A DNA stretch of 64,000 nucleotides from Gemmatimonadota bacterium (GTDB taxonomy: Bacteria; Gemmatimonadota; Gemmatimonadetes; Gemmatimonadales; GWC2-71-9), in contig PNAE01000012.1 of NCBI GenBank assembly GCA_003169895.1, forward strand, positions 62,001-126,000, read 5' to 3'. Below, piece by piece: positions 17,101-64,000 of the stretch; within the stretch, counting starts at the first letter, position 1; each line of letters opens with the position of its first letter. Position numbers and translations under genes: made by a program. The notes beneath the pieces are model-generated. The model did not search any database and was not told the origin of the DNA. It worked only from the letters and a program-made list of their open reading frames with translations.

Positions 17101-18802
17101 GTCTCCATGCGGAGAGCAGAGCGTTGATTGCCGGCGCTGAATTCGTCGAACCGACCATCGGTTCCCGGAGACCGGCGCTCGGGCAGGCCGCCATCGACGC
17201 GGCGATCGCGCCAGTCATGCCTGTGACGGCAAACCCTGCGGCGTGCGCGCCAGCTGAATCCTCGCTGAACGCAAAGACGAAATTCTTGCTGGCGGCGATG
17301 CGATTCGCCAACAATTTCCGTGCGGCGTTACTGCCGCGGAAATAGATGAAACTGTGAATGCCCTGCGAAGTTTTCAACCAGGTATCGGACGTGATGGGGC
17401 CGCCATCGAAACTGTAGCTCACTGCTCCAGCGGCCGAGACAAAACTTTGCGTGACGACGCCCAGGACAAAGGTGCCGGATCCGCAGCCGATCAGGAGGGT
17501 GGGGTATCCTGACTGCCGGGACTGATTGGTGGCGTGGTTGGACGATTCCAGAGCTGCCCCAATCGTCGAGCCGTTACCGAAGGGGAGCCAGTCGTAGCTT
17601 GTGACAGAATAGGTGGCGGTCGCGTTCTCCGACTTCGCCTGAATCACCACCATGCCTGATCCCGCGGTGACTAACCTACCCGAACCGTCCACGTTCGCTG
17701 TCCCACTGATTACGCTCCAGGTAACTCCGCGCGCCACGGGAGTGCCGTCGGCCAGCCGCGATTGGGCTCGGTACGCATTCAGCACTCCGGCCCTCGCTCG
17801 GGACGGGCCGACAATGGCCACTGACGTCACCGGCGGTGATGGCGGTGATGGCGGTGGCGGCGGTGGCGGCGGTGGTGGTGTCGGCAGTGGTGGTGTCGGC
17901 GGCGGTGGCGGTGGCGGCGGCAGGGACCGGGGCGCCGGTGGCGGGGGCGGCGCCATCGGTGCCGGCACGGTCACGGTCACGTTGGCCGCCGCGGTCAGCT
18001 TGCCCTTGCGGCTGTACGCGACAACCTGCGCGGTCCCCGGTACCGTCGCAGTGTAGCTACCGGTCAACGAGTCGAGCCTACCCGAACCGGTCAGACGATA
18101 TGCCACGTCGGCCGAGCCGCCACAGTAGCTGGCGGTGGCCGAGAACGTCTCGGTCTCGCCCGGCTGAAGGTTCGCCGACGTTGGCCGGATGGTGATCACG
18201 TCAGCGGCGTGGTCACAACCGTGTCCACCGAGCAGGAAGTCCACACCGATCTGCCCGCCGGCGTAGGTGTTGAGGACGTTGAATGTGCCTTTGGGAACGA
18301 TGTCGAGTGTTCCGTCGAGGCGGAAGCTGAGCGCCCGCAATGCCCGCCAGCGGAAGCCGACCGTGCCGCCCATGCCAAACGTGCTGTTCTGGATCGCCTT
18401 CGACAGGTGCTGGTCACTGACACCCGCACCGGCCAGCAAGAAGAGCCGGTTGCTGACCGGCGCGTTGTACACCAGCTGCAGGTGAATCGGCGTGTACAGC
18501 AGCGGGCACGACACACTGTTGGGAGGGGTGCAGGAAACCAGCGACGCAGATGGCGCAACGTCGAACGGGTTGCTGGACACGTCCAGTTCGACCGCAAGAT
18601 TCCTTGCCACAAAGAGACCGATTCGCCCGCCGCCGCCCCATCGGTTGCTCGTAGTATTCATGACCGTGTAGGCCGTTGTCGGACGGTTGTATCGCCCGAA
18701 GGCACCGATCTCGAACGTGCCCTTCCCGATGCCTGTGGCCTGACCCGCCAGTGTACTGGCTGTCATGAACACGGCAGTCACCGCCAGCCCGATGCGACGC
18801 AT
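17084..18802 (-). CDS. Composite surface protein: beta-barrel, Ig-like domains, Pro-rich linker, VasI-like C-terminal domain
   Basis: 572 residues. The signal peptide MRRIGLAVTAVFMTASTLAG is followed by a likely outer-membrane beta-barrel (~20-190; FEIGAFGRYNRPTTAY, GGGGRIGLFVARNLAVELDV, GGQIGVDFLLGG). An Ig-like segment (~200-280; ITIRPTSANLQPGETETFSA) leads to a Pro-rich linker of some 45 residues, then a second Ig-like Big_2-type segment (VAIVGPSRARAGVLNAYRAQ). The C-terminal ~150 residues (TLLIGCGSGTFVLGV, VSYSFDGGPITSDTWLKTS, ending AACP) resemble the VasI/T6SS-associated fold by pattern only. The start at 18802 follows a GAGGAGGGTGGG ribosome site; a start at 18835 is unlikely. Precise role unknown; surface display next to polysaccharide-export genes is inferred. 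Confidence 0.7.
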   Translation of the reverse strand: MRRIGLAVTAVFMTASTLAGQATGIGKGTFEIGAFGRYNRPTTAYTVMNTTSNRWGGGGRIGLFVARNLAVELDVSSNPFDVAPSASLVSCTPPNSVSCPLLYTPIHLQLVYNAPVSNRLFLLAGAGVSDQHLSKAIQNSTFGMGGTVGFRWRALRALSFRLDGTLDIVPKGTFNVLNTYAGGQIGVDFLLGGHGCDHAADVITIRPTSANLQPGETETFSATASYCGGSADVAYRLTGSGRLDSLTGSYTATVPGTAQVVAYSRKGKLTAAANVTVTVPAPMAPPPPPAPRSLPPPPPPPPTPPLPTPPPPPPPPPPSPPSPPVTSVAIVGPSRARAGVLNAYRAQSRLADGTPVARGVTWSVISGTANVDGSGRLVTAGSGMVVIQAKSENATATYSVTSYDWLPFGNGSTIGAALESSNHATNQSRQSGYPTLLIGCGSGTFVLGVVTQSFVSAAGAVSYSFDGGPITSDTWLKTSQGIHSFIYFRGSNAARKLLANRIAASKNFVFAFSEDSAGAHAAGFAVTGMTGAIAASMAACPSAGLREPMVGSTNSAPAINALLSAWRQATHH

Positions 18803-18883
18803 CCCACCCTCCTCGTGATGCTTTGCCCCACACATTCCCCTGAAGCCGCCGGTCGCCGCCGCCGGTGGTGAACCGGCGCAGCC

Positions 18884-20401
18884 CTAGTGGGAGAGTACGC
18901 CGCCGAGGCGGAAGCCGATAGTGGCCTGGACTCGCCCGACGAATTCCGTCGCGCCTGAATTGCTCACGTGCTGGAATCCAGCCTGCCCCGTCACCGCAAC
19001 GCCCCGTTCCTCGCCGCTTACCCCCACGGTGGCCTGCCACGTGTCGCGCCGGGTCCCGATGAACAACGTCGGGGTCGTGGCCGCGGTGGTTGCGTCTGGG
19101 AAAGGATCGTTGATGCTTCCCTGGCCCTGCCGGCGCAGGTCGAGTTGCGGGGTCACCAGCCAATGATCGCGAACCGGCACGCTGGCGCTCAGCGAAAATT
19201 GGTCGTTGTCGATGAAGTTGCGCCCGATACCCACGCCGGCATCGGTGAAGTTCTCGTTGACATTGGTGGTGTGATAGGCCAGCGAGGAATTCATCGCGTA
19301 GCTCGCTCGCCACGCGAACCCGCCGGCGAGCGGCCCCGCAGTCACGACGCCGAGTCCGAAGCGGTGCGGGTAGGGATTCGCCGGGTCGAAGGTCCAGTCG
19401 TCGATCGCTCCCTGAACCTCGAGCCGGAACTGGCGTATCGGGCGCCACGTCGCGTCGCCACCGAGCATCGCGTTGCGCCGGTCACCGATGCCGAACTGCC
19501 GGCCGAACGTCATCAGGATCAACGGATTGAGGATCGTCGGGTCCGGCGCCCCGCCGCTGCGCTGGGAGACCGAGGATTCCCACACGGCGAGATCGAGGTT
19601 ATCGCGCACGCGAACCTGCAGGCGGTGGGCGGCGAACAAGCGCGTTACCACGGCGCCGCTATCGGTCACGCCGTCGCTCAATGGTGCCACGAGCGCCTCC
19701 AACCGGATGGTCCGGTTGCCGACCCAGAACGACAGGTCGGTGCGCGGATAGCCGTAATCACTGATCGGAATGCCGGGCATGCCGACCGGCCCCCAGTTGC
19801 GCGACATCTGGCCGAGATGTATGCCGCCCCATTTCCACTGCACCGTGGCATACGCTTCCACGAACCGGAAGTAGTTGAGGTTACCGACCGATCCGTACGG
19901 ATGGTAATCCGGGTCGTCCCTCAGGCTCGGCTCGTACGCCGGGCGCATGCTGGCCGTGAAGTTGCCCAGACTCATCGTGAACGCGGCATCGACATAGGCC
20001 TGCAGGTTGCCCACGCCGCCCGGCGCCAGGAGATCCCGGCGGCCCTGCGTGTACGCCTGCACGCCGCCGCGAGGTGCCACGCGCCACCAGGCTTCCGCCG
20101 TCGGCAGCTCCCACGCGCGCAACAACTCACGCACCAGGCGTGCACTCGCACCGGTCGAATCATGCGCCGCCGCGGTGTGCAGAGCGGCGACGACCGTGCG
20201 CTGCAGCAGCGGTCGCACCTGCGGGGAAGGGTCGTTCACGTCGCCGCGAGCGATCAGTAGCTCCAGCATCGGCAGTCGCGGATCATCGAGTGCGATGTAC
20301 GGCGAGCCCTGCGCGGTGGCAGCGTGCGCCGTGACTGTTGCGACCAAGGCGAGCAGTACGACGACCAACCGCCAACGAGTGGAGCACACGCCGGCGATCA
20401 T
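18884..20401 (-). CDS. Wzi-like capsule assembly outer-membrane protein
   Basis: 505 residues with signal peptide MIAGVCSTRWRLVVVLLALV ending near HAATAQG, then SPYIALDDPRLPMLELLIARG and a long series of amphipathic beta strands (VQWKWGGIHLGQMSRNWGPV, YPRTDLSFWVGNRTIRLEAL) ending in FRLGGVLSH with the usual C-terminal strand. This pattern fits the Wzi family, whose E. coli member helps attach capsule at the cell surface. I chose ATG 20401, 13 bases after the SLBB gene stop; a longer frame exists but would overlap that gene. It is co-transcribed with the SLBB exporter, so both likely act on the polysaccharide encoded at 24-36 kb. Confidence 0.78.
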   Translation of the reverse strand: MIAGVCSTRWRLVVVLLALVATVTAHAATAQGSPYIALDDPRLPMLELLIARGDVNDPSPQVRPLLQRTVVAALHTAAAHDSTGASARLVRELLRAWELPTAEAWWRVAPRGGVQAYTQGRRDLLAPGGVGNLQAYVDAAFTMSLGNFTASMRPAYEPSLRDDPDYHPYGSVGNLNYFRFVEAYATVQWKWGGIHLGQMSRNWGPVGMPGIPISDYGYPRTDLSFWVGNRTIRLEALVAPLSDGVTDSGAVVTRLFAAHRLQVRVRDNLDLAVWESSVSQRSGGAPDPTILNPLILMTFGRQFGIGDRRNAMLGGDATWRPIRQFRLEVQGAIDDWTFDPANPYPHRFGLGVVTAGPLAGGFAWRASYAMNSSLAYHTTNVNENFTDAGVGIGRNFIDNDQFSLSASVPVRDHWLVTPQLDLRRQGQGSINDPFPDATTAATTPTLFIGTRRDTWQATVGVSGEERGVAVTGQAGFQHVSNSGATEFVGRVQATIGFRLGGVLSH

Positions 20402-54192: not shown

Positions 54193-54875
54193 CGGCCGTG
54201 CAGCCGTCACCGGTGCGGGTCGGCGTGGCCGGTACGACGCTGGCGCATGGTGGGCTGATCGCCCTGGCCTTGCTGGCGGCGCATCGTGCGAAACCGCCAC
54301 TGAACATCGTCTACGAAGTGAACCTGGTCGCGGCACCATTGCCGAGCCCGGCACTGCACAACGCCGCGCCGGAGGCAACGCCGGCTGCACCGGAGGACGT
54401 CGCACCGACCGTGGTGAAGCCGCGGGTCGTCAAGCCGGTGCCGAAGCCGCCGACGGTGCCGGCCAAGCGGGTCGACGCCAGGCCGGTGACAAAGTCCCCG
54501 ACCACCCCTGCGTCGGGCGAGCGGCCGAGCACCGGCCGGGATGTCGTGACGCTGCACCAGGAGGGGATCAGCTTTCCCTATCCCGAATACCTGCGCAACA
54601 TCGAGAACAAAATTTTCGCGCAATGGAACCATGCCATGTTCCGGCCGGGACTGGACGTGAAGATCGCGTTCGTGATCCTGAAGGACGGATCGGTGAACTT
54701 GAACAGTCTCGAGATCGTCAAGGGGTCGGGCAGCTACGGCTTCGACTTGAACGCCCGTGCGGCGATCGAAGCCGCGGCCGCCGCCCTCGCCTTCGGGCCG
54801 CTGCCGACCGGCTGGAACGGCGCGTCGTTGCCGATCCAGTTCGACTTTTCCCAGGTCGCGAAGGGAGCGCCATGA
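54189..54875 (+). CDS. TonB-family protein in the TolA position
   Basis: 228 residues: one N-terminal membrane helix (~18-36), a Pro/Lys-rich periplasmic stretch (~55-110, VVKPRVVKPVPKPP) and a C-terminal TonB-like domain (FPYPEYLRNIENKIFAQWNH, DVKIAFVILKDGSVNLNSLE, LPTGWNG). It should link the TolQR motor to Pal/TolB at the outer membrane, as TolA does, although it is much shorter than E. coli TolA (421) and lacks the long helical domain II. Confidence 0.87.
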   Translation: MTAVQPSPVRVGVAGTTLAHGGLIALALLAAHRAKPPLNIVYEVNLVAAPLPSPALHNAAPEATPAAPEDVAPTVVKPRVVKPVPKPPTVPAKRVDARPVTKSPTTPASGERPSTGRDVVTLHQEGISFPYPEYLRNIENKIFAQWNHAMFRPGLDVKIAFVILKDGSVNLNSLEIVKGSGSYGFDLNARAAIEAAAAALAFGPLPTGWNGASLPIQFDFSQVAKGAP

Positions 54876-56188
54876 GCGCCGGCCGCGGGTTCATCGCTGC
54901 GTCCTTGCTGTCCGTCGCAGTACTGCGACTCGGCGCACAGGACTCGACCATCAAGGCCATCCAGCTCGGCGTGCGCGGTGCGTCGTCGGCGCAGCCGGGC
55001 CTCGTGGTGCTGGCGGGCCCCGGACTCGATTCGGTGCGCACCATCGTGCAGCGTGACCTGGAGAACTCGAATCGCTTCACGATGCCGCCGCACGGCGCCG
55101 ATTCGGCGTTCACGCTGCACGGGCCGTTCAATCCCGCCGCGCTCAAGAACAGCGGACTGACCTGGGTGGTCGAGCTGGAGCCGGCGGTCGGCGGCGTCGA
55201 CGTCAAGCTGTACGACATGGCGACGGGAACCATCCGCCAGCAGATGACCCGTCCGCTCGACGCGAGTGGCGTGGGCGACAGCCGCATGACCATCCATCGA
55301 GTCAGCGATCTGGTCGCCGGATGGACCGGTAATATCGGCATCGCGGCGACGCGGATCGCATTCAAGTTGAAGGAAGGTAAGGACGACGCGATCTGGCGCA
55401 TTGACAGCGACGGGGCGAACCTCGCCCGCGTCTCGCGTCCCGGCGGCATCACCGCAACGCCGGCATGGAGTCCCGACGGAGGCAGCATCGCCTTCACCGA
55501 GTACCGAGATGGTCGGTGGACGCTCTTCCTGGAGCGGCTCGGCAGCGGCACGCGTGCCGCCATGCCGAGTTCGTCGGCGGGCGACAGCTACGGCGCGAAC
55601 TTCGCGCCCGATGGCAGGACCCTCGTGTACTCGCACGGACTGGAAGCGGGCTCGGGCATTGAATCCGCGGACATTTCGCGGATGTGTTGTGCACACGTAT
55701 TGACCCATGACGGCCGGTTTGCGGATAATGTGTCGCCTACCTATTCTCCTGACGGACACCGGATCGCATACGTGTCGAACCGCACTGGCACGCCAGAGAT
55801 CTATGTCATCGACGACGACGGCACCGGCCGAGCGCAGTTGGTGCCCTCGGACTTCGAACCGGGCGGCAGGGCACTGCCGACATACTCGCCCGCGTGGTCG
55901 CCCGACGGAGCAACGATCGTGTTCGACCGGGACACCCCGTCGGGAGGAAGACACCTGTTCACCTGGTCCGTCGGCAGCGGACAGGTCATCCAGCTGACGT
56001 CGTCGGGACGGAACGACGATCCCAGCTGGGCCCCGGACTCGCGGCACGTCGTGTTCAAGTCCAACCGGGCTGGCGCGCGCGAGCAGCTATGGATCCTCGA
56101 TGTCGTATCCGGTGCCGTGCGGCAATTGGCCACGTCCGGCGGCGCCCAGTACCCGGCGTGGTCACATATTCTCGGCACCAACCCGTAA
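54872..56188 (+). CDS. tolB: Tol-Pal system beta-propeller protein TolB
   Basis: 438 residues. Signal peptide (FIAASLLSVAVLRLGAQ), TolB N-terminal domain (~25-160; VVLAGPGLDSVRTIVQRDLE) and a C-terminal six-bladed propeller with WD40-like PD40 repeats: AWSPDGGSIAFTEYRDG, NFAPDGRTLVYSHG, TYSPDGHRIAYVSNRTGTPE, AWSPDGATIVFDRDTPSG, SWAPDSRHVVFKSNRAG. Periplasmic partner of Pal and the TolA-like protein. ATG 54872 overlaps the upstream stop. Confidence 0.93.
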   Translation: MSAGRGFIAASLLSVAVLRLGAQDSTIKAIQLGVRGASSAQPGLVVLAGPGLDSVRTIVQRDLENSNRFTMPPHGADSAFTLHGPFNPAALKNSGLTWVVELEPAVGGVDVKLYDMATGTIRQQMTRPLDASGVGDSRMTIHRVSDLVAGWTGNIGIAATRIAFKLKEGKDDAIWRIDSDGANLARVSRPGGITATPAWSPDGGSIAFTEYRDGRWTLFLERLGSGTRAAMPSSSAGDSYGANFAPDGRTLVYSHGLEAGSGIESADISRMCCAHVLTHDGRFADNVSPTYSPDGHRIAYVSNRTGTPEIYVIDDDGTGRAQLVPSDFEPGGRALPTYSPAWSPDGATIVFDRDTPSGGRHLFTWSVGSGQVIQLTSSGRNDDPSWAPDSRHVVFKSNRAGAREQLWILDVVSGAVRQLATSGGAQYPAWSHILGTNP

Positions 56189-56200
56189 GTGGAGGCTGCA

Positions 56201-56767
56201 ATGAATCGGCGTGCACTGATCGCCCTCTCGGTCGGACTCACCTTGGGCCTGACGGCCTGCCACAAGAAGCGGCCAGAGACCGCGCCAACGCCGGTGAATC
56301 CGCCTTCAGCGTTGCCGCCCCAGCCGCCCCCCCCGCCGCCCGCACCGCCGGCGCCACCGCCGGGCACGAGCGATGCCAACCTCGGCGCCGTTGCCGCCGG
56401 CCGCGTGGCGAGCATGTCGGAGCGGATCCATTTCGACTACGATAAATCCGACCTCAAGCCGGAGGACACGAGCCGGCTCGATGGCAAAGCCCAGCTGCTG
56501 AAGCAGTTCACCGCGCTCAAGATCCGGATTACCGGCCATTGCGACGAGCGCGGCTCGGATCAGTACAACATCGCGCTCGGCATGCGTCGCGCGACCGCGG
56601 CCAAGACCTACCTGGTGCAGCTGGGGATCGACGCCTCGCGCATCGACGTCGCGTCGCTGGGCCGGGAAGTACCGGTCGATCCGGGCCACGACGAGTCCGC
56701 GTGGGCGCAGAACCGCCGCGATGAGTTCGACATCATCGCCGGCAGCCAGAGCCTGAGAGCGCCTTGA
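56201..56767 (+). CDS. pal: Peptidoglycan-associated lipoprotein
   Basis: 188 residues. Lipoprotein signal MNRRALIALSVGLTLGLTAC with lipobox LTAC, a Pro-rich linker (residues ~30-60), then the OmpA-like peptidoglycan-binding domain: IHFDYDKSDLKPEDTSRLDG, ITGHCDERGSDQYNIALGMR and NRRDEFDI. ATG 56201 has GGAGG upstream. A run of eight C at 56327-56334 in the linker coding region is a possible slippage site. The stop overlaps the next start (TGATG). Confidence 0.95.
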   Translation: MNRRALIALSVGLTLGLTACHKKRPETAPTPVNPPSALPPQPPPPPPAPPAPPPGTSDANLGAVAAGRVASMSERIHFDYDKSDLKPEDTSRLDGKAQLLKQFTALKIRITGHCDERGSDQYNIALGMRRATAAKTYLVQLGIDASRIDVASLGREVPVDPGHDESAWAQNRRDEFDIIAGSQSLRAP

Positions 56768-57537
56768 TGCGCGCGACTGGCGCAGCCGCTTGCCTGCTGG
56801 CCGGCATGGCCGCATGCGCGACGCCGGGACAGGTGCGCCGGGTGGAAACGCAGGTCGCGATCCTCGACCGCGATCACGCCCGCGCCGACTCCGCGCGGGC
56901 TGCAGACTTGGTCCGGATCCAGGCGATGCAGCGCCAGAGCATGGATTCGATCAACCTGCTGGTGGGTCGGCTGAGCGACAACGTCCAGCGCCTAGGCCGT
57001 GAGACGGCAGCCAACTTCGACAACCTGCGGCAACAGCTTTATCAGGTGGCCAACCTCGCCAGCAATACGCAGTCGACGGTGAAACGCCTGGGGACCCAGA
57101 TCGAGACCGCCGTTTCGACCGCGCCACCCGGATCCGACACCGCCCACGCACCGGCGGGACTGATTCCACAGCCCGATGTGCTGCTGAGCCAGGCGAGTGG
57201 GGCGATGGATCGGTCAGCCAACTCATCGGCGCGGATGGCCTTGAGCACGCTGCTGCAGAACTATCCCACGTCGATCCAGGTCCCGGAGGCGGTGTTCCTC
57301 ATGGGCCGGTCGTTCGATCCGGCGGCACCCGACTCGGCGCGTACCTACTACGACCGCGTGTGGAAGACCTATCCCGATTCGCCGTATGCGCCCACCGCGT
57401 TGTACAAGCTCGGCATGCTGGAGCTGAAGGTCCAGAACGCTGCCGCTGCACGCGGGTATTTTCAACAGATCGTCGACCGGTACAAATCGTCCGACGAATA
57501 CGGGTCCGCGCAGGATCGCCTGCGCGAAAACCCCTAG
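56767..57537 (+). CDS. cpoB: Tol-Pal system protein CpoB/YbgF
   Basis: 256 residues. N-terminal signal with a possible lipobox (LAGMAAC), a coiled-coil trimer region (~30-110; ADLVRIQAMQRQSMDSINLL, LGRETAANFDNLRQQLYQVA) and C-terminal TPRs (SARMALSTLLQNYPTSIQVP, ARTYYDRVWKTYPDSPYAPT, ARGYFQQIVDRYKSSDEYGS). CpoB coordinates Tol-Pal constriction with peptidoglycan synthesis in E. coli. ATG 56767 shares one base with the pal stop codon. Confidence 0.9.
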   Translation: MRATGAAACLLAGMAACATPGQVRRVETQVAILDRDHARADSARAADLVRIQAMQRQSMDSINLLVGRLSDNVQRLGRETAANFDNLRQQLYQVANLASNTQSTVKRLGTQIETAVSTAPPGSDTAHAPAGLIPQPDVLLSQASGAMDRSANSSARMALSTLLQNYPTSIQVPEAVFLMGRSFDPAAPDSARTYYDRVWKTYPDSPYAPTALYKLGMLELKVQNAAAARGYFQQIVDRYKSSDEYGSAQDRLRENP

Positions 57538-57553
57538 TCCTACCCGGCGGCAC

Positions 57554-60500
57554 ATGGCCAATTCTGCCGGCGAGATGCCGTTCCTCGACCACCTCGAGGA
57601 ACTACGCAAGCGCATTCTGCTGGCGCTGGCCGGCGTGGTCGTGGGGCTCGGGATCGGCTGGCTGGCAACCACCCGGTTCGACCTGATCAAGAAGCTCGAA
57701 GTCCCGATCGCCCCGTTCATTCCTGGCGGGAAGCTGACGGTGCTGACGCCCATCGCGCCGTTCATGATCTACCTCAAGTTCGCGATGGTGCTGGGACTGG
57801 TACTGTCCTCGCCCTGGGTGCTCTACCAGCTGTGGGCCTTTCTCGCTCCCGCGCTCACGCGGCGCGAAAAGAAGGCGATCCTCCCCGCGCTGGGGATCGG
57901 CCTGGTGCTGTTCCTCGCCGGCGCCGCGATCGGCTGGCATTACGTCCTGCCGCCCACGATCAAGTGGCTGCTCACGTTCGAGCAGGGCACGTTCATCACC
58001 CAGATCACGTACGACTCCTACCTGGAACTGGTGATCCATCTGCTCGTGGCGATGGGAATTTCGGCCGAGCTGCCGTTGGTGATGATCCTGCTCGCTTCGC
58101 TCGGCCTGCTGTCGTATCGGGTGTACAAGCGGTTCCGACGGTATGCGTTCTTCCTGTCGTTCATCGGTGGAGCGATTCTGTCGCCGACGCCCGAAGTCGT
58201 GTCGATGATCCTGTTTACGCTTCCGTTGCTGATGCTGTACGAGGTAGGCATGGCGGGCGCCTACATCGTCGAGCGGCGCAAGCTGCGTGCGGCGCGCGCC
58301 GTCGCGGCGGGCGCCGTCCTGCTGGCGCTGGCCGTGCCGCATAGCGTGCACGCGCAGTTCCCGCGGCCGGCGCCCGCGCCGGTGCAGGGCGTGCCCGGCC
58401 GGGCGGACACCGGCCGGCGCGGCGTGACGGGCCAGGGGTTGCGCAGCATCGATTCCTCCACGGCCAAGCGCCTCGGGTTGCCCGCCGGACCGACCCGCGT
58501 GTTCCCGGGTCCGGATTCCGTGATGCAGGCCCTCTTGTCCCGCGAAGGGTTTGCGGCGACGCGCTTCATCGCCGACTCGGCGAGTTTCAATGTCGACGAC
58601 CAGCGCATTCTGCTGAGTGGCCGGGCCGCGACCGATCGTGACGCCAGCATCCTTGAAGCCGACCGGATTATCTACGACGACGGCCGCTGCGAAGTCGTGG
58701 CCGAGGGCGAACCGCGGATGTTCGAACCCGGCCAGGCCGCCCTGATCGGCATTACCATGCGGTTCAACACCTGCAACGAACGCGGCCTGATCGGCGAGGC
58801 GTACACCTCGTTCAACGAGCTGGGCGCCAACTGGTTTGTCCGTGGCAATCTCGCCGTCGACTCGAGCGCCAAGCGGTTGTACGCCGCGCACAGCGAGTTC
58901 ACGTCGTGCGACCTCCCCGAGCCGCACTATCACTTTGTCGCCGGCCAGGTCAAGTGGGTGTCACAGTCGATCATCGTCGCACGCCCTGCGGTGCTCTTCA
59001 TTCGCGACGTGCCGGTGGCGTGGTTGCCGTTCATTTTCCAGGACACCAAGAGCGGCCGGGCCTCCGGCATCCTGATTCCGAGGTTCGGCTTCAACGACAT
59101 CGTGCGTCCGACCCGAACCTACAATCGACAGCTCACCGACCTGGGGTACTACTGGGCGCCGAACGACTACATCGACGCCACGGCCCGTTTTGACTGGTAC
59201 GCCAATCGCAACACGCAGTACACCGGGCAGTTCAACTACCGGTGGTTGGACCGGTTCGTCCAGGGCGGCATCAGCGTCACGGATCTGATCCAGACCGACG
59301 GTGCGACCAGCAAGACCGTAAGCTGGCAGCATCGCCAGGAGTTCAACGTCACCACGTCGATCAACCTGAACTTCAACTATGCATCCAATTCTTCCGTGCT
59401 GCAGAACAACGCCATCGACCCGTCGCTGTCGACGCGTGGGATCTACAGCCAGCTGACGCTGCAGAAGCGGTTCCGGTGGGGCCAGCTGAGCGTCGGCGGA
59501 ACGCGCAACCAGAGCCTGAGTGATGGCAGCGGCACGATGACACTGCCGTCGTTGACGATTTCCCCCAGCGCCATGGCGCTGGGGAAGCACATCACGTGGT
59601 CACCATCCTTCAGCGCGCATAACGACATGGCGTTCGGCACGCCGCTGACGGCGTTCAGCGTGTCGGAAACGGGAACTGACACGATCAAGTCGACCGGGCA
59701 CGCCCGCTTGACCGTCGTCACGCTGACCACGCCGCTCGAACTGTTCGGCCTGACGTGGTCGAACTCGCTGCAATACCAGGACCGGCAGGTGGTCGGGCCG
59801 ACGAGCGTGACCCAGCGCGTGCCCGTGAGCACCCGCGATTCGACCGACTCAGTGTCCGTCACGACGTTCCGGGGCGGCGACTTCCAGAGCACGCTGGACT
59901 GGAGTACGGCGGTCAGCCTGCCGTCCCTGTTCCGTAGCACGTGGAAGGTCACGCCATCGATCGGCGTGAGCAACATTGCCTCCGGCGCGTTCGTCCTGCG
60001 CTCGCCCGGCAGCAATGGGAACTGGGTGGCTCAGGGGAAAAAGATGGAGTTCGACCTGCAATCCGTGCCGAGCTTCTACGGGTTCATCAATCGCGGGCTC
60101 GGCCCGTACCAGCGGTTTCGGTACGAGTTCGCGCCGTTCATGGCGTTGAAATGGTCGCCCGCGGCCTCGGTGTCGCAAGCCTATGCCCGCGCGCTCGGGG
60201 CCACCGGCGCCCAGGCGCAGGTCGACGTTCCGGCCCTGATGCAGGCGAGTGTGTCGCTGCACCAGACGTTCGTCGGCAAGATGCGTCCGCTGGCGAGCGA
60301 TACCAACACCGATCCAATTCACCTGGCGGGCCTGCCCAAGAAGCAGATCTTCAGCATCAGCACCTCAGGGATTTCCTACGACTTCGAGCAAGCCAAGCTG
60401 CCACACCGCACCGGCTGGACGACGCAGGCACTGACCAACTCATTCCAGAGTGACCTGTTGCAGGGGTTCACCGTGTCGACGACACACGACCTGTGGCAAG

Positions 60501-61153
60501 GAGCGGTCGGCACGGATACGGCGCGCTTTTCGCCCTTCCTGTCGCAGGTGCAGGCGAGCTTTTCCCTCACGGGTCACACCTTTCACACCATCGCGGGAGT
60601 CCTCGGGCTGGTGCGCCATGACACGGTCACGGCGACGGGGCCGGCGCTCGGCACGTCGTCACCGCTGGCGGCGGCGTCGGCGATGTCAATGCTGCGTCCC
60701 GGTGCGTCGGCGCTGCAGGGCCTGCCCAGGCGGGGGTTCAACGCCAGCGTGACGTATATGTTGTCGCGCCAGCGTGCGACCGGCCCCACCGCGCAGCCGG
60801 TAACGACCGACCCGACCGGGATCGGCTCGCCGCTCGACCCGCTCGGCACGCTGCCGCTGGTGCCAATCATCGCGCCGCCGGCCGCAAGCAGTATCGGCCT
60901 CACCATGTCGTTCTCGCCGACGGCATTCTGGACGGTCTCGTGGAACACGCTCTACGACATCAGCAAGGGCAGTTTCGAGCAGCAGACGATCCAGCTGCAA
61001 CGCGACCTGCACGACTGGCGCGCCAGCTTCAATTTCGTCAAGAACGTCAACGGCAACTTCGCCCTGTATTTCAGCGTGTTCCTGCTCAACCTCCCCGATG
61101 TCAAGTTCGACTACAATCAGACGACACTGCAACAGACGACGCTGGCCCCATGA
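57554..61153 (+). CDS. TatC fused to an LptD-like outer-membrane protein
   Basis: One uninterrupted 1199-codon frame. Residues 1-245 are a complete TatC, the Tat translocase receptor: FLDHLEELRKRILLALAGVV, six hydrophobic segments, LWAFLAPALTRREKKAILPA (the E of APALxxxE) and ILSPTPEVVSMILF. After TatC helix 6 come KLRAARAVAAGAVLLALAV and SVHAQFP (~243-268), a signal-peptide-like segment with a VHA|Q cleavage site. From ~330 an OstA/LptA-like domain (SFNVDDQRILLSGRAATDRD), then DVPVAWLPFIFQDTKSGRAS and LIPRFGFNDIVRP and a C-terminal beta-barrel match LptD, the LPS transporter of the outer membrane. An internal ATG at 58250 with GAGG upstream could start the LptD part alone. Either a real fusion or two overlapping products. 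Confidence 0.88.
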   Translation: MANSAGEMPFLDHLEELRKRILLALAGVVVGLGIGWLATTRFDLIKKLEVPIAPFIPGGKLTVLTPIAPFMIYLKFAMVLGLVLSSPWVLYQLWAFLAPALTRREKKAILPALGIGLVLFLAGAAIGWHYVLPPTIKWLLTFEQGTFITQITYDSYLELVIHLLVAMGISAELPLVMILLASLGLLSYRVYKRFRRYAFFLSFIGGAILSPTPEVVSMILFTLPLLMLYEVGMAGAYIVERRKLRAARAVAAGAVLLALAVPHSVHAQFPRPAPAPVQGVPGRADTGRRGVTGQGLRSIDSSTAKRLGLPAGPTRVFPGPDSVMQALLSREGFAATRFIADSASFNVDDQRILLSGRAATDRDASILEADRIIYDDGRCEVVAEGEPRMFEPGQAALIGITMRFNTCNERGLIGEAYTSFNELGANWFVRGNLAVDSSAKRLYAAHSEFTSCDLPEPHYHFVAGQVKWVSQSIIVARPAVLFIRDVPVAWLPFIFQDTKSGRASGILIPRFGFNDIVRPTRTYNRQLTDLGYYWAPNDYIDATARFDWYANRNTQYTGQFNYRWLDRFVQGGISVTDLIQTDGATSKTVSWQHRQEFNVTTSINLNFNYASNSSVLQNNAIDPSLSTRGIYSQLTLQKRFRWGQLSVGGTRNQSLSDGSGTMTLPSLTISPSAMALGKHITWSPSFSAHNDMAFGTPLTAFSVSETGTDTIKSTGHARLTVVTLTTPLELFGLTWSNSLQYQDRQVVGPTSVTQRVPVSTRDSTDSVSVTTFRGGDFQSTLDWSTAVSLPSLFRSTWKVTPSIGVSNIASGAFVLRSPGSNGNWVAQGKKMEFDLQSVPSFYGFINRGLGPYQRFRYEFAPFMALKWSPAASVSQAYARALGATGAQAQVDVPALMQASVSLHQTFVGKMRPLASDTNTDPIHLAGLPKKQIFSISTSGISYDFEQAKLPHRTGWTTQALTNSFQSDLLQGFTVSTTHDLWQGAVGTDTARFSPFLSQVQASFSLTGHTFHTIAGVLGLVRHDTVTATGPALGTSSPLAAASAMSMLRPGASALQGLPRRGFNASVTYMLSRQRATGPTAQPVTTDPTGIGSPLDPLGTLPLVPIIAPPAASSIGLTMSFSPTAFWTVSWNTLYDISKGSFEQQTIQLQRDLHDWRASFNFVKNVNGNFALYFSVFLLNLPDVKFDYNQTTLQQTTLAP

Positions 61154-61158
61154 GAGCT

Positions 61159-61189
61159 GAGGGCTGGAGGCTGGGGGGCCCTAGCCCTC
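61159..61189 (+). terminator. Hairpin after the TatC-LptD gene
   Basis: GAGGGCT (61159-61165) pairs with AGCCCTC (61183-61189) around a 17-base loop that can form a further GGG/CCC stem. It begins 5 bases after the stop. There is no T-run, so termination is uncertain. Confidence 0.45.
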
Positions 61190-61262
61190 GGCCACCGGCC
61201 CCTCTACACTTCAACTCCCAGTCCCATCGGCACTTGCGCCCCTTCTACCTCTTCGGCCGCCC

Positions 61263-63170
61263 ATGACGCTGCAGAAGCTTAAAGTCGCAGCGCTTCAGCA
61301 CGAACAGCGCGAGGAGTGGGATGCGGCGATCGAGCTGTACCGGCAGGCCATCCGCGACGCCGACGGGGCGTCGGAAGGCGGCGATCCCTCGCTCTTCAAT
61401 CGCATCGGCGACCTGGCGCACAAGTCCGGTGACGATGCCGCCGCATGCGAAGCGTGGGAGCAGGCGGTCATCCGCTACGGCGACCTTGGCTTCCTCAACT
61501 CCGCCATCGCACTCGGCGGCAAGATCCTCCGCGTCAACCCCGGACGGTTGCACACCTATCTGGAACTCGCCCGCTTGCAGGCCCGCAAGCGCGTGCTCTA
61601 CGACGTGCGCCGCAACCTGCAGGTCTATCTCGAGCAGATGACCGCCACCGGCCGCGCTGACGATGCGCGCGCCGCAGTGGAGAAGCTGGGCAACGAATTT
61701 CCCGGGTGGCGCGATCTCGATACGCTGCTGGACGTATTGCTCGGCCGCGAGGGCATCGCCGGCGGGCCGGGCGAGGATCGCGTGGAACCCGGCGCAGGCG
61801 GACGCGGGCTGGTATTCCTCGATACCGCACCTTTGCAAATCGAACGTGCGTCCGAGCCGCCGGCGATGGCCTCCGACGGCGGCATCGACGGATCGGTCAC
61901 CAGCGCGATCGAGCCCCCGGCGGAGCGTGACGAGCGCCCGGTCACGGGCTTCGAGCCGACCCATGACGGCGCGCCGGCAGCGAGCGATCCGGCCGACCGG
62001 TCCCGCGCGGTCGAAGGGCTGGTCGGAGTTGCGCGACCGTCCCACGAGTTGGCGCCGATCGTGCCGCTCGAAAGTCGCGATCAGATCGCCGCGAGCGGCA
62101 CCGCATCGGTCGGTCCGGTCGCCGGACTCGAGACGACGTCTGCGGCGCGGGCCGATAAATCCCCGGCCGACGCCCGGGGCGGCGGCCTCGTCTTCATCCA
62201 GACCGACGCTCCGGCGCTGGTTGCGCCCGTCGAGCTCCCGGCGCCCGCACCGGACGATCCCCTCGGGCAGCGCGTCGCGGCGCACGCACGCCTGGAGCAC
62301 GGCGACCGCGCCGGGGGGATCGCGGGACTCGAGCGATCCCTGGCGCTGTATCAGGACCAGGCCGAGTGGCTCCACGCGTACCAGGTCGCCAGCGAACTGG
62401 TGCAGGCGGAACCGGGCGCAATAGCACGTTATCAGGCCCGCGTGGAGATTGCCGCACGGATGCGCGATTCCGAGCGGCTTTGTGACGCGTACGTCGAACT
62501 CGGCGACGCCCTGGTCCGTGGCGGCGCTCCCGACAAGGCCGTCGCAGTATACCGGCGGATTCTCGAGCTGAACGACGGTCATGAACGGGCGCGCGCGGCG
62601 CTCCGCGCCATGGCGCCCGACAGCAAGGCCGACGAGTCACCGTCCGGGTTTATCGACCTCGGCGCGATGCTCATCGACGACCATCCGCGCTCGACCCGGA
62701 TGCGCACCGAGACGCCGGACGTTGCTCCCGATGAAAACGAGACCTTTCGAGATGCCCTCGCCGAGTTCAAGCGTGCCCTCGACCAGAACCTCCCGATCGA
62801 GGATCATCAGGCGCATTACGACCTGGGCATCGCGTTCAAGGAAATGGGGCTGTTCGACGAGGCGATCAGCGAGTTCCAGAAGGCGCTGCGGGTCCCGGAG
62901 GTCCGGCTCCGCACCTCCGAGGCGCTCGGCGAGGTGTTCTTCGAGCAGGGCAGGCCCGGTGTCGCCGAGACGGTGCTTCGCAGCGTGGAGAACAGTGCCG
63001 AGGGCGACGCCCAGAAGATCGGCGTGCTGTACTGGCTTGGCCGCGCCCTGAGTGCGCAAGGCAAGCACCGCGAGGCCGCAGGTTATTATCAACGCATCAT
63101 CGCCGTTGACGTCAGCTTTCGCGACGCCGGCGAGCGGCTCAGCCAGTCCAGCGGAGATGCAAAGGAATGA
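61263..63170 (+). CDS. Large TPR-repeat protein
   Basis: 635 residues without a signal peptide. N-terminal TPR block (~1-130; EQREEWDAAIELYRQAIRDA, FNRIGDLAHKSGDDAAACEA, GRLHTYLELARLQARKRVLY), a long low-complexity linker rich in Ala, Pro, Glu and Asp (~170-330), and a C-terminal TPR block (~335-630; GDALVRGGAPDKAVAVYRRI, DLGIAFKEMGLFDEAISEFQ, LGRALSAQGKHREAAGYYQR). A scaffold role is likely but the partner is unknown. The prenyl synthase start overlaps its stop (ATGA). Confidence 0.85.
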   Translation: MTLQKLKVAALQHEQREEWDAAIELYRQAIRDADGASEGGDPSLFNRIGDLAHKSGDDAAACEAWEQAVIRYGDLGFLNSAIALGGKILRVNPGRLHTYLELARLQARKRVLYDVRRNLQVYLEQMTATGRADDARAAVEKLGNEFPGWRDLDTLLDVLLGREGIAGGPGEDRVEPGAGGRGLVFLDTAPLQIERASEPPAMASDGGIDGSVTSAIEPPAERDERPVTGFEPTHDGAPAASDPADRSRAVEGLVGVARPSHELAPIVPLESRDQIAASGTASVGPVAGLETTSAARADKSPADARGGGLVFIQTDAPALVAPVELPAPAPDDPLGQRVAAHARLEHGDRAGGIAGLERSLALYQDQAEWLHAYQVASELVQAEPGAIARYQARVEIAARMRDSERLCDAYVELGDALVRGGAPDKAVAVYRRILELNDGHERARAALRAMAPDSKADESPSGFIDLGAMLIDDHPRSTRMRTETPDVAPDENETFRDALAEFKRALDQNLPIEDHQAHYDLGIAFKEMGLFDEAISEFQKALRVPEVRLRTSEALGEVFFEQGRPGVAETVLRSVENSAEGDAQKIGVLYWLGRALSAQGKHREAAGYYQRIIAVDVSFRDAGERLSQSSGDAKE

Positions 63171-64000
63171 CGTTGCCTCAGCTCGGTTCGCTCTCACTTG
63201 GCGATCTCCAGGCCGCGATCGAACCGCGCCTCGGTCAGGTCGAGACCGAAATGCGGCGCATGATCGAAGCGGACTTCCCGCTGATCAGCGACGTGAACGA
63301 GCACCTGCTCCGGATGCGGGGCAAGATGTTTCGACCCACGCTCGTGTTGCTGGCCGACGAAGCGACTGGTGGCCCCTCGGCACACGGCGCGACGCTTGCT
63401 GCGGTCATCGAGTTGATTCATCTCGCGACACTCGTGCACGACGACGCGGTCGATCATTCGGTGCTCCGGCGCGGCATGCCGACGATCAACGCCCTGTTCT
63501 CGCACCAGGTGTCGGTGATCATGGGGGACTTCCTCTATTCGCGTGCCGTCGTGGAGCTGGTGCGGTTTGGCGACCTGCGCGCGCTGGCAATTCTCGCCCG
63601 CGTGACGAACGAGATGACCATCGGCGAAATGCGCCAGTTGCTCGCACACGATCCGCTCGCATTCACCGAGGACCAGTACGACCTGCTCATCAAGGCGAAG
63701 ACGGCATCGCTCATCTCGGGCGCGTGTGAGGTCGGCGCCCTGGGTGCACCGGAACGCGAACGTCTCGTGTTGGCCCGTTTCGGCGAAACGCTCGGCATGG
63801 CGTTCCAGATCGTGGACGACCTGCTCGATTACACCGCCGATGAGTCGCTGACCGGCAAACCATCCGGCCTGGACCTGCGCGAGCACAAGGTCACCCTGCC
63901 GCTGATCTACGCGTTGCCGCGGTTTTCGCCGTCGGAGCGGCGCGCCCTGGAGGCATTGCTCCGGAACCCCCAGCCGGCGGACGCCGAGATTGCCGCCGTG
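63167..64000 (+). CDS. Polyprenyl diphosphate synthase (3' end outside window)
   Basis: The open frame from ATG 63167 to the window end gives 278 residues of a trans-isoprenyl diphosphate synthase. Both aspartate-rich motifs are present: LATLVHDDAVDHSVLRRGMP (DDxxD) and GMAFQIVDDLLDYTADESL, followed by GKPSGLDLREHKVTLPLIYA. GKMFRPTLVLLADEA precedes. The size and motifs fit an octaprenyl/heptaprenyl or similar long-chain synthase for quinone side chains; chain length cannot be told from this portion. ATGA overlap with the TPR gene. The C-terminus is cut by the window edge. Confidence 0.93.
   Translation, partial: MTLPQLGSLSLGDLQAAIEPRLGQVETEMRRMIEADFPLISDVNEHLLRMRGKMFRPTLVLLADEATGGPSAHGATLAAVIELIHLATLVHDDAVDHSVLRRGMPTINALFSHQVSVIMGDFLYSRAVVELVRFGDLRALAILARVTNEMTIGEMRQLLAHDPLAFTEDQYDLLIKAKTASLISGACEVGALGAPERERLVLARFGETLGMAFQIVDDLLDYTADESLTGKPSGLDLREHKVTLPLIYALPRFSPSERRALEALLRNPQPADAEIAAV

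Follow-up and report, generated by a model that had tools for sequence, protein, structure and literature searches.

A tatC–lptD gene fusion in a family of Gemmatimonadota, with a putative signal peptidase site between its halves

How can a single open reading frame code for both a TatC of the inner membrane and an LptD of the outer membrane, and what would become of such a chain after its synthesis? This question is raised by a gene found in the window, i.e. the whole stretch of 64,000 nucleotides from a Gemmatimonadota bacterium that was analyzed here. A first-pass annotation had claimed a single frame that joins a complete six-helix TatC to an LptD-like protein, and this was borne out by translation, by Pfam, by a profile comparison with solved structures and by a structure model. 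The frame starts 16 nt past the preceding gene and runs from its ATG to the stop codon with no internal stop (Table 1). We consider it highly probable that the gene encodes a polyprotein and that signal peptidase I splits this chain at the 267/268 bond into TatC and mature LptD. What was observed is the fused frame with its conservation, the signal-peptide pattern, the single copy of each protein and the genes for signal peptidase; that the chain is really cut, how it is exported, that its halves are made 1:1 and that both are active is what we infer.

Table 1. Features of the tatC–lptD locus; positions refer to the window and assignments at the junction are predictions
Feature	Position	Strand	Basis or remark
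tatC–lptD fusion gene, 1199 aa	57554–61153	+	Stop included; ORF, Pfam, NCBIfam, relatives
TatC part, aa 1–230, six helices, to the conserved LYE motif (E230)	57554–58243	+	Pfam, model helices, invariant residues
TatC C-terminal tail VGMAGAYIVERRKLRAAR, aa 231–248, also putative n-region of the internal signal peptide	58244–58297	+	K/R content
Hydrophobic and c-region AVAAGAVLLALAVPHSVHA, aa 249–267, predicted signal peptidase I site at its end	58298–58354	+	Columns of 50 fusions
Predicted start of mature LptD, Q268 (+1), and Pro-rich disordered linker, aa 268–300	58355–58453	+	Q268 invariant; pLDDT <50
LptD N-terminal periplasmic (OstA/LptA-like) β-domain, ~aa 321–497	58514–59044	+	Profile, model strands
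LptD outer-membrane barrel, ~aa 526–1191	59129–61126	+	LptD_2 from aa 474; model strands; fold search to LptDE
In-frame ATG (M233) with GAGG core upstream	58250–58252	+	No other plausible internal start in this species; not conserved

Residues 12–224 are assigned to TatC by Pfam (PF00902; 193 bits vs. a cut-off of 25.1) with the profile covered over its entire length (1–208 of 208), and the match to the NCBIfam tatC model also exceeds its cut-off. Residues 474–878 belong to LptD_2 (PF19838; 97 bits vs. a cut-off of 22.5). Comparison of a profile built from 50 fusions with solved structures retrieved TatC (4htt, 4b4a and 9dzz) with E-values from 1e-60 to 1e-69 and LptD (7omm) with 2e-9; the region of the β-domain gave profile matches to LptD (7omm, 8h1r) and LptA (8onu). 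An AlphaFold2 model of the full chain (mean pLDDT 76) shows TatC helices up to residue 258, disorder in 257–300, a β-domain and a barrel. A fold search with this model returned LptD chains (best E 1.6e-24) as well as TatC chains (TM-score of about 0.79 by target length). In the LptD half the profile match, the N-terminal β-domain and the barrel are all present. The TatC half looks functional from its sequence, since the key residues E16, R18 and E105, which align with E15, R17 and E103 of Escherichia coli TatC, are invariant in the alignment of 50 fusions.

As the genome contains one copy of TatC and one match to LptD_2, both proteins come from the fused chain, and nothing suggests another source of either. 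Two genes for signal peptidase I are present together with LptF, LptG and LpxC, and one TatA-family gene is located about 460 nt past the end of the window (G000:C5:126460-126603). The surroundings of the fusion form an envelope cluster (54623–63172) composed of TolB-like, Pal (OmpA), CpoB/YbgF-like, tatC–lptD, a TPR protein and a polyprenyl synthetase, after which the TatA-family gene follows. LpxC lies in frame with a FabZ-like domain (a frame of 460 residues; L251, G000:C1, about 18135–18941), which gives this genome another envelope-related fusion; LpxC–FabZ fusions are known from other phyla. An apparent LptF–LptG fusion (an “open frame” of 897 residues) was rejected because a stop was found between them: the two genes are adjacent in the same frame with this single stop in between (L249, G000:C8, about 988136–989617), and the LptF-like protein has a long low-complexity insert of roughly 130–150 residues.

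A stop or a frameshift between two genes could have been lost in sequencing or assembly, as the first-pass annotation had cautioned, and the draft state of the genome as well as a split relative (G271) in which the frame breaks in a poly-G tract would fit such an artefact. The comparison with related genomes that had been proposed there speaks against it. Of 102 genomes from the same family that were searched for TatC, 89 have it, and the loci of the relatives were translated directly to judge the fusion. TatC and LptD share one uninterrupted frame in 66 further species from 31 genera; the fusion is present in separately named public assemblies, too, and several loci (L210 and L211 among them) are ended by the contig edge with the frame still open. 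With so many fused relatives a sequencing error is ruled out, and we give the artefact practically no chance. In addition, the substitutions between close pairs that fall within the region of the tail and the signal peptide are distributed as 60, 38 and 152 over codon positions 1, 2 and 3, a bias which argues that the junction is translated and constrained as protein.

Seven genomes within the family are unfused (G120, G040, G198, G405, G271, G400 and G017). In G271 the genes are split at the poly-G tract mentioned above (L188/L261, G271:C35) and a signal peptide is not evident in the frame of lptD; either the sequencing slipped here or the site itself is slippery. In G017 lptD possesses its own signal peptide and stands alone on a contig other than that of tatC. 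The tail of its TatC (L144, G017:C47:53000-60500) resembles that of another family (f2), and this tatC was possibly replaced by transfer.

Beyond the family, wherever a locus is long enough to show both genes, tatC and lptD are neighbours but not fused. Most of these loci exhibit a 4-base overlap of the two genes, usually GTGA or else ATGA, with the genes in different frames, and the unfused lptD has its own signal peptide, mostly with the same A-x-A↓Q ending (the arrow marks the putative cut). In the sister family (f3) the GTG of lptD is located close behind the TAG stop of tatC, and in two species (G305 and G260) TAG and GTG abut in the same frame, which leaves them one substitution away from a fusion. 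The fusion would have a single origin at the root of this Gemmatimonadota family, where the stop that separated the neighbouring tatC and lptD was lost. A tree built from TatC and LptD together (quick LG+G4 reconstruction in IQ-TREE with SH-aLRT support, G017 left out), which does not resolve how f3 and the two family halves branch, needs five state changes, and this implies one fusion at the family base followed by four later fissions. Such repeated fissions mean that the fusion is dispensable. Relatives with two separate genes had been named in the first-pass annotation as possible counter-evidence; this does not apply within the family with its many fused species and holds outside of it, so these relatives date the fusion and do not refute it.

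Past the LYE motif the fusions display Arg-rich residues, a hydrophobic core, a site of the A-x-A type and then a glutamine. The tail segment (aa 231–248) has a mean of 5.2 K/R in the 67 fusions, and the cut site is nearly always found 34–43 residues past LYE. Among the 50 aligned fusions position −1 is occupied by alanine (43), glycine (5), threonine (1) or serine (1), position −3 mainly by leucine, alanine or valine, position −2 is free and position +1 is glutamine in all 50. Between E230 and D300 no residue other than Q268 is invariant in this set; a weak site, GWT↓Q, is found in one fusion (L205). In the window the hydrophobic segment after KLRAAR ends in the conserved site VHA↓Q (58354/58355). 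The −3/−1 rule is the established pattern of signal peptidase I cleavage. Judged by these residues, a textbook type I signal peptide lies at the junction, with the TatC tail as its n-region, and the signal peptide of LptD is present but internal to the chain. Selection preserves the −3/−1 pattern and the glutamine at +1, whereas the surroundings drift. This glutamine (58355–58357 in the window; lptD signal peptides of L137–L232) does not vary among the fusions and is also the usual residue in unfused lptD of Gemmatimonadota; it resembles the “Q-rule” reported as Bacteroidetes-specific (PMC5837995).

In the proposed processing TatC would be inserted in the inner membrane so that its C-terminus faces the cytoplasm. 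A cytoplasmic C-terminus is established for TatC, and this means that the Arg-rich tail is already placed as n-region. From there the chain would re-enter the Sec translocon via the internal signal peptide, LptD would be threaded through Sec into the periplasm and signal peptidase I would release it at A267↓Q268. The predicted products are TatC carrying about 20 extra residues at its C-terminus as a membrane segment and mature LptD, 932 residues long (aa 268–1199), the latter for assembly in the outer membrane. The suggestion that such a two-compartment polyprotein is topologically consistent had been made at first reading, and it is supported by the 66 fused relatives.

LptD could also be produced mainly as its own preprotein by initiation inside tatC at the ATG of M233, with the fused product being minor. 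This codon with its upstream Shine–Dalgarno-like core could start LptD separately, a start codon with such a core occurs near the junction in 10 of the 67 fusions and the lptD of unfused relatives starts at a similar place. Nevertheless, we regard internal initiation as unlikely because a start codon is conserved at no position across the fusions and the ATG in question is absent from the nearest relative (L208). Within 20 codons past LYE neither ATG nor GTG nor TTG is found in L137, L138, L143, L150, L172, L186, L191, L194 and L208, and L194 is devoid of any start codon up to the cut site. These missing start codons are the stronger argument; many tatC starts in these genomes are without a clear Shine–Dalgarno core, so that a missing core alone is weak evidence. 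Moreover, the full-length chain would still be made. A conserved internal start of LptD is thus rejected in view of the missing shared start codon, and an internal start is possible in this species.

A chain that stays uncut and links TatC in the inner membrane to LptD in the outer membrane across the periplasm would be allowed by the topology, and the model predicts about 44 disordered residues (aa 257–300) between the halves. Its probability appears very slim, since the signal peptidase site is kept while its surroundings drift and the linker, counted from Q268 to the next motif, is of variable length (27–56 residues) and no longer than in split relatives (29–41). The first-pass annotation had left the choice between a periplasm-spanning chain and separation after synthesis; on the basis of the conserved VHA↓Q separation is much better supported and the spanning tether is disfavoured. 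As reasons for keeping the fusion a rerouting of LptD export and a fixed dosage are guesses. It is also improbable that the Tat translocase and the LPS inserter are coupled in such a way that LptD is exported on the co-translational route of TatC with 1:1 synthesis, and that a delayed or partial cut leaves an uncut fraction linking the Tat complex to the Lpt machinery.

For the cleaved TatC–LptD polyprotein favoured here no description was found in the open-access literature, which also yielded nothing relevant on TatC fused to an exported partner and, as far as searched, no bacterial case of a polyprotein cut by signal peptidase. The closest parallel is the fbcH gene of Bradyrhizobium japonicum, which reportedly encodes a polyprotein of cytochrome b and cytochrome c1 that is separated at an internal signal peptide (Thony-Meyer et al. 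1989, Cell 57:683). There, too, an inner-membrane protein lies in frame with an exported protein and both are split after synthesis, a cleavage that is predicted for TatC–LptD, whose sequence pattern displays the corresponding two proteins in one open frame with an internal type I cut site between them. In contrast, the products of fbcH are parts of the same inner-membrane complex, whereas TatC and LptD are parts of unrelated systems in two membranes. In hepatitis C virus (Flaviviridae) core ends in the signal peptide of E1 and signal peptidase separates the two, as described in PMC5402940. The resemblance is that the signal peptide for the downstream partner forms the end of the upstream protein, but the system is viral and eukaryotic and a further protease trims the signal peptide off core; none such is known for TatC–LptD. 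The separate tatC and lptD of other Gemmatimonadota families agree in gene order, homologous proteins and mostly in A-x-A↓Q, and they differ in being two genes, usually with a GTGA overlap or, in the sister family, a TAG–GTG abutment. TatC2 of Halobacterium, a natural fusion of two TatC units (PMC13186574), joins TatC to TatC in one membrane and has no signal-peptide junction. With the principle known from fbcH and core–E1, the novelty lies in the partners, the two membranes, the family-wide conservation and the reversions, and the TatC–LptD pair conserved across a family appears to be undescribed.

Annotation pipelines may name such a gene only TatC, and LptD then looks absent. Bacterial polyproteins cut into products for different membranes are, to our knowledge, rare. 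Here most of a bacterial family makes two important envelope factors, usually independent of each other, as a single chain, and the unfused, the one-step-away, the fused and the re-split states are all visible in living lineages. With these organisms one can ask, as in a natural experiment, if LptD can be delivered along with a multi-spanning membrane protein, if TatC accepts an extra C-terminal segment and how signal peptidase deals with a signal peptide that follows a polytopic protein.
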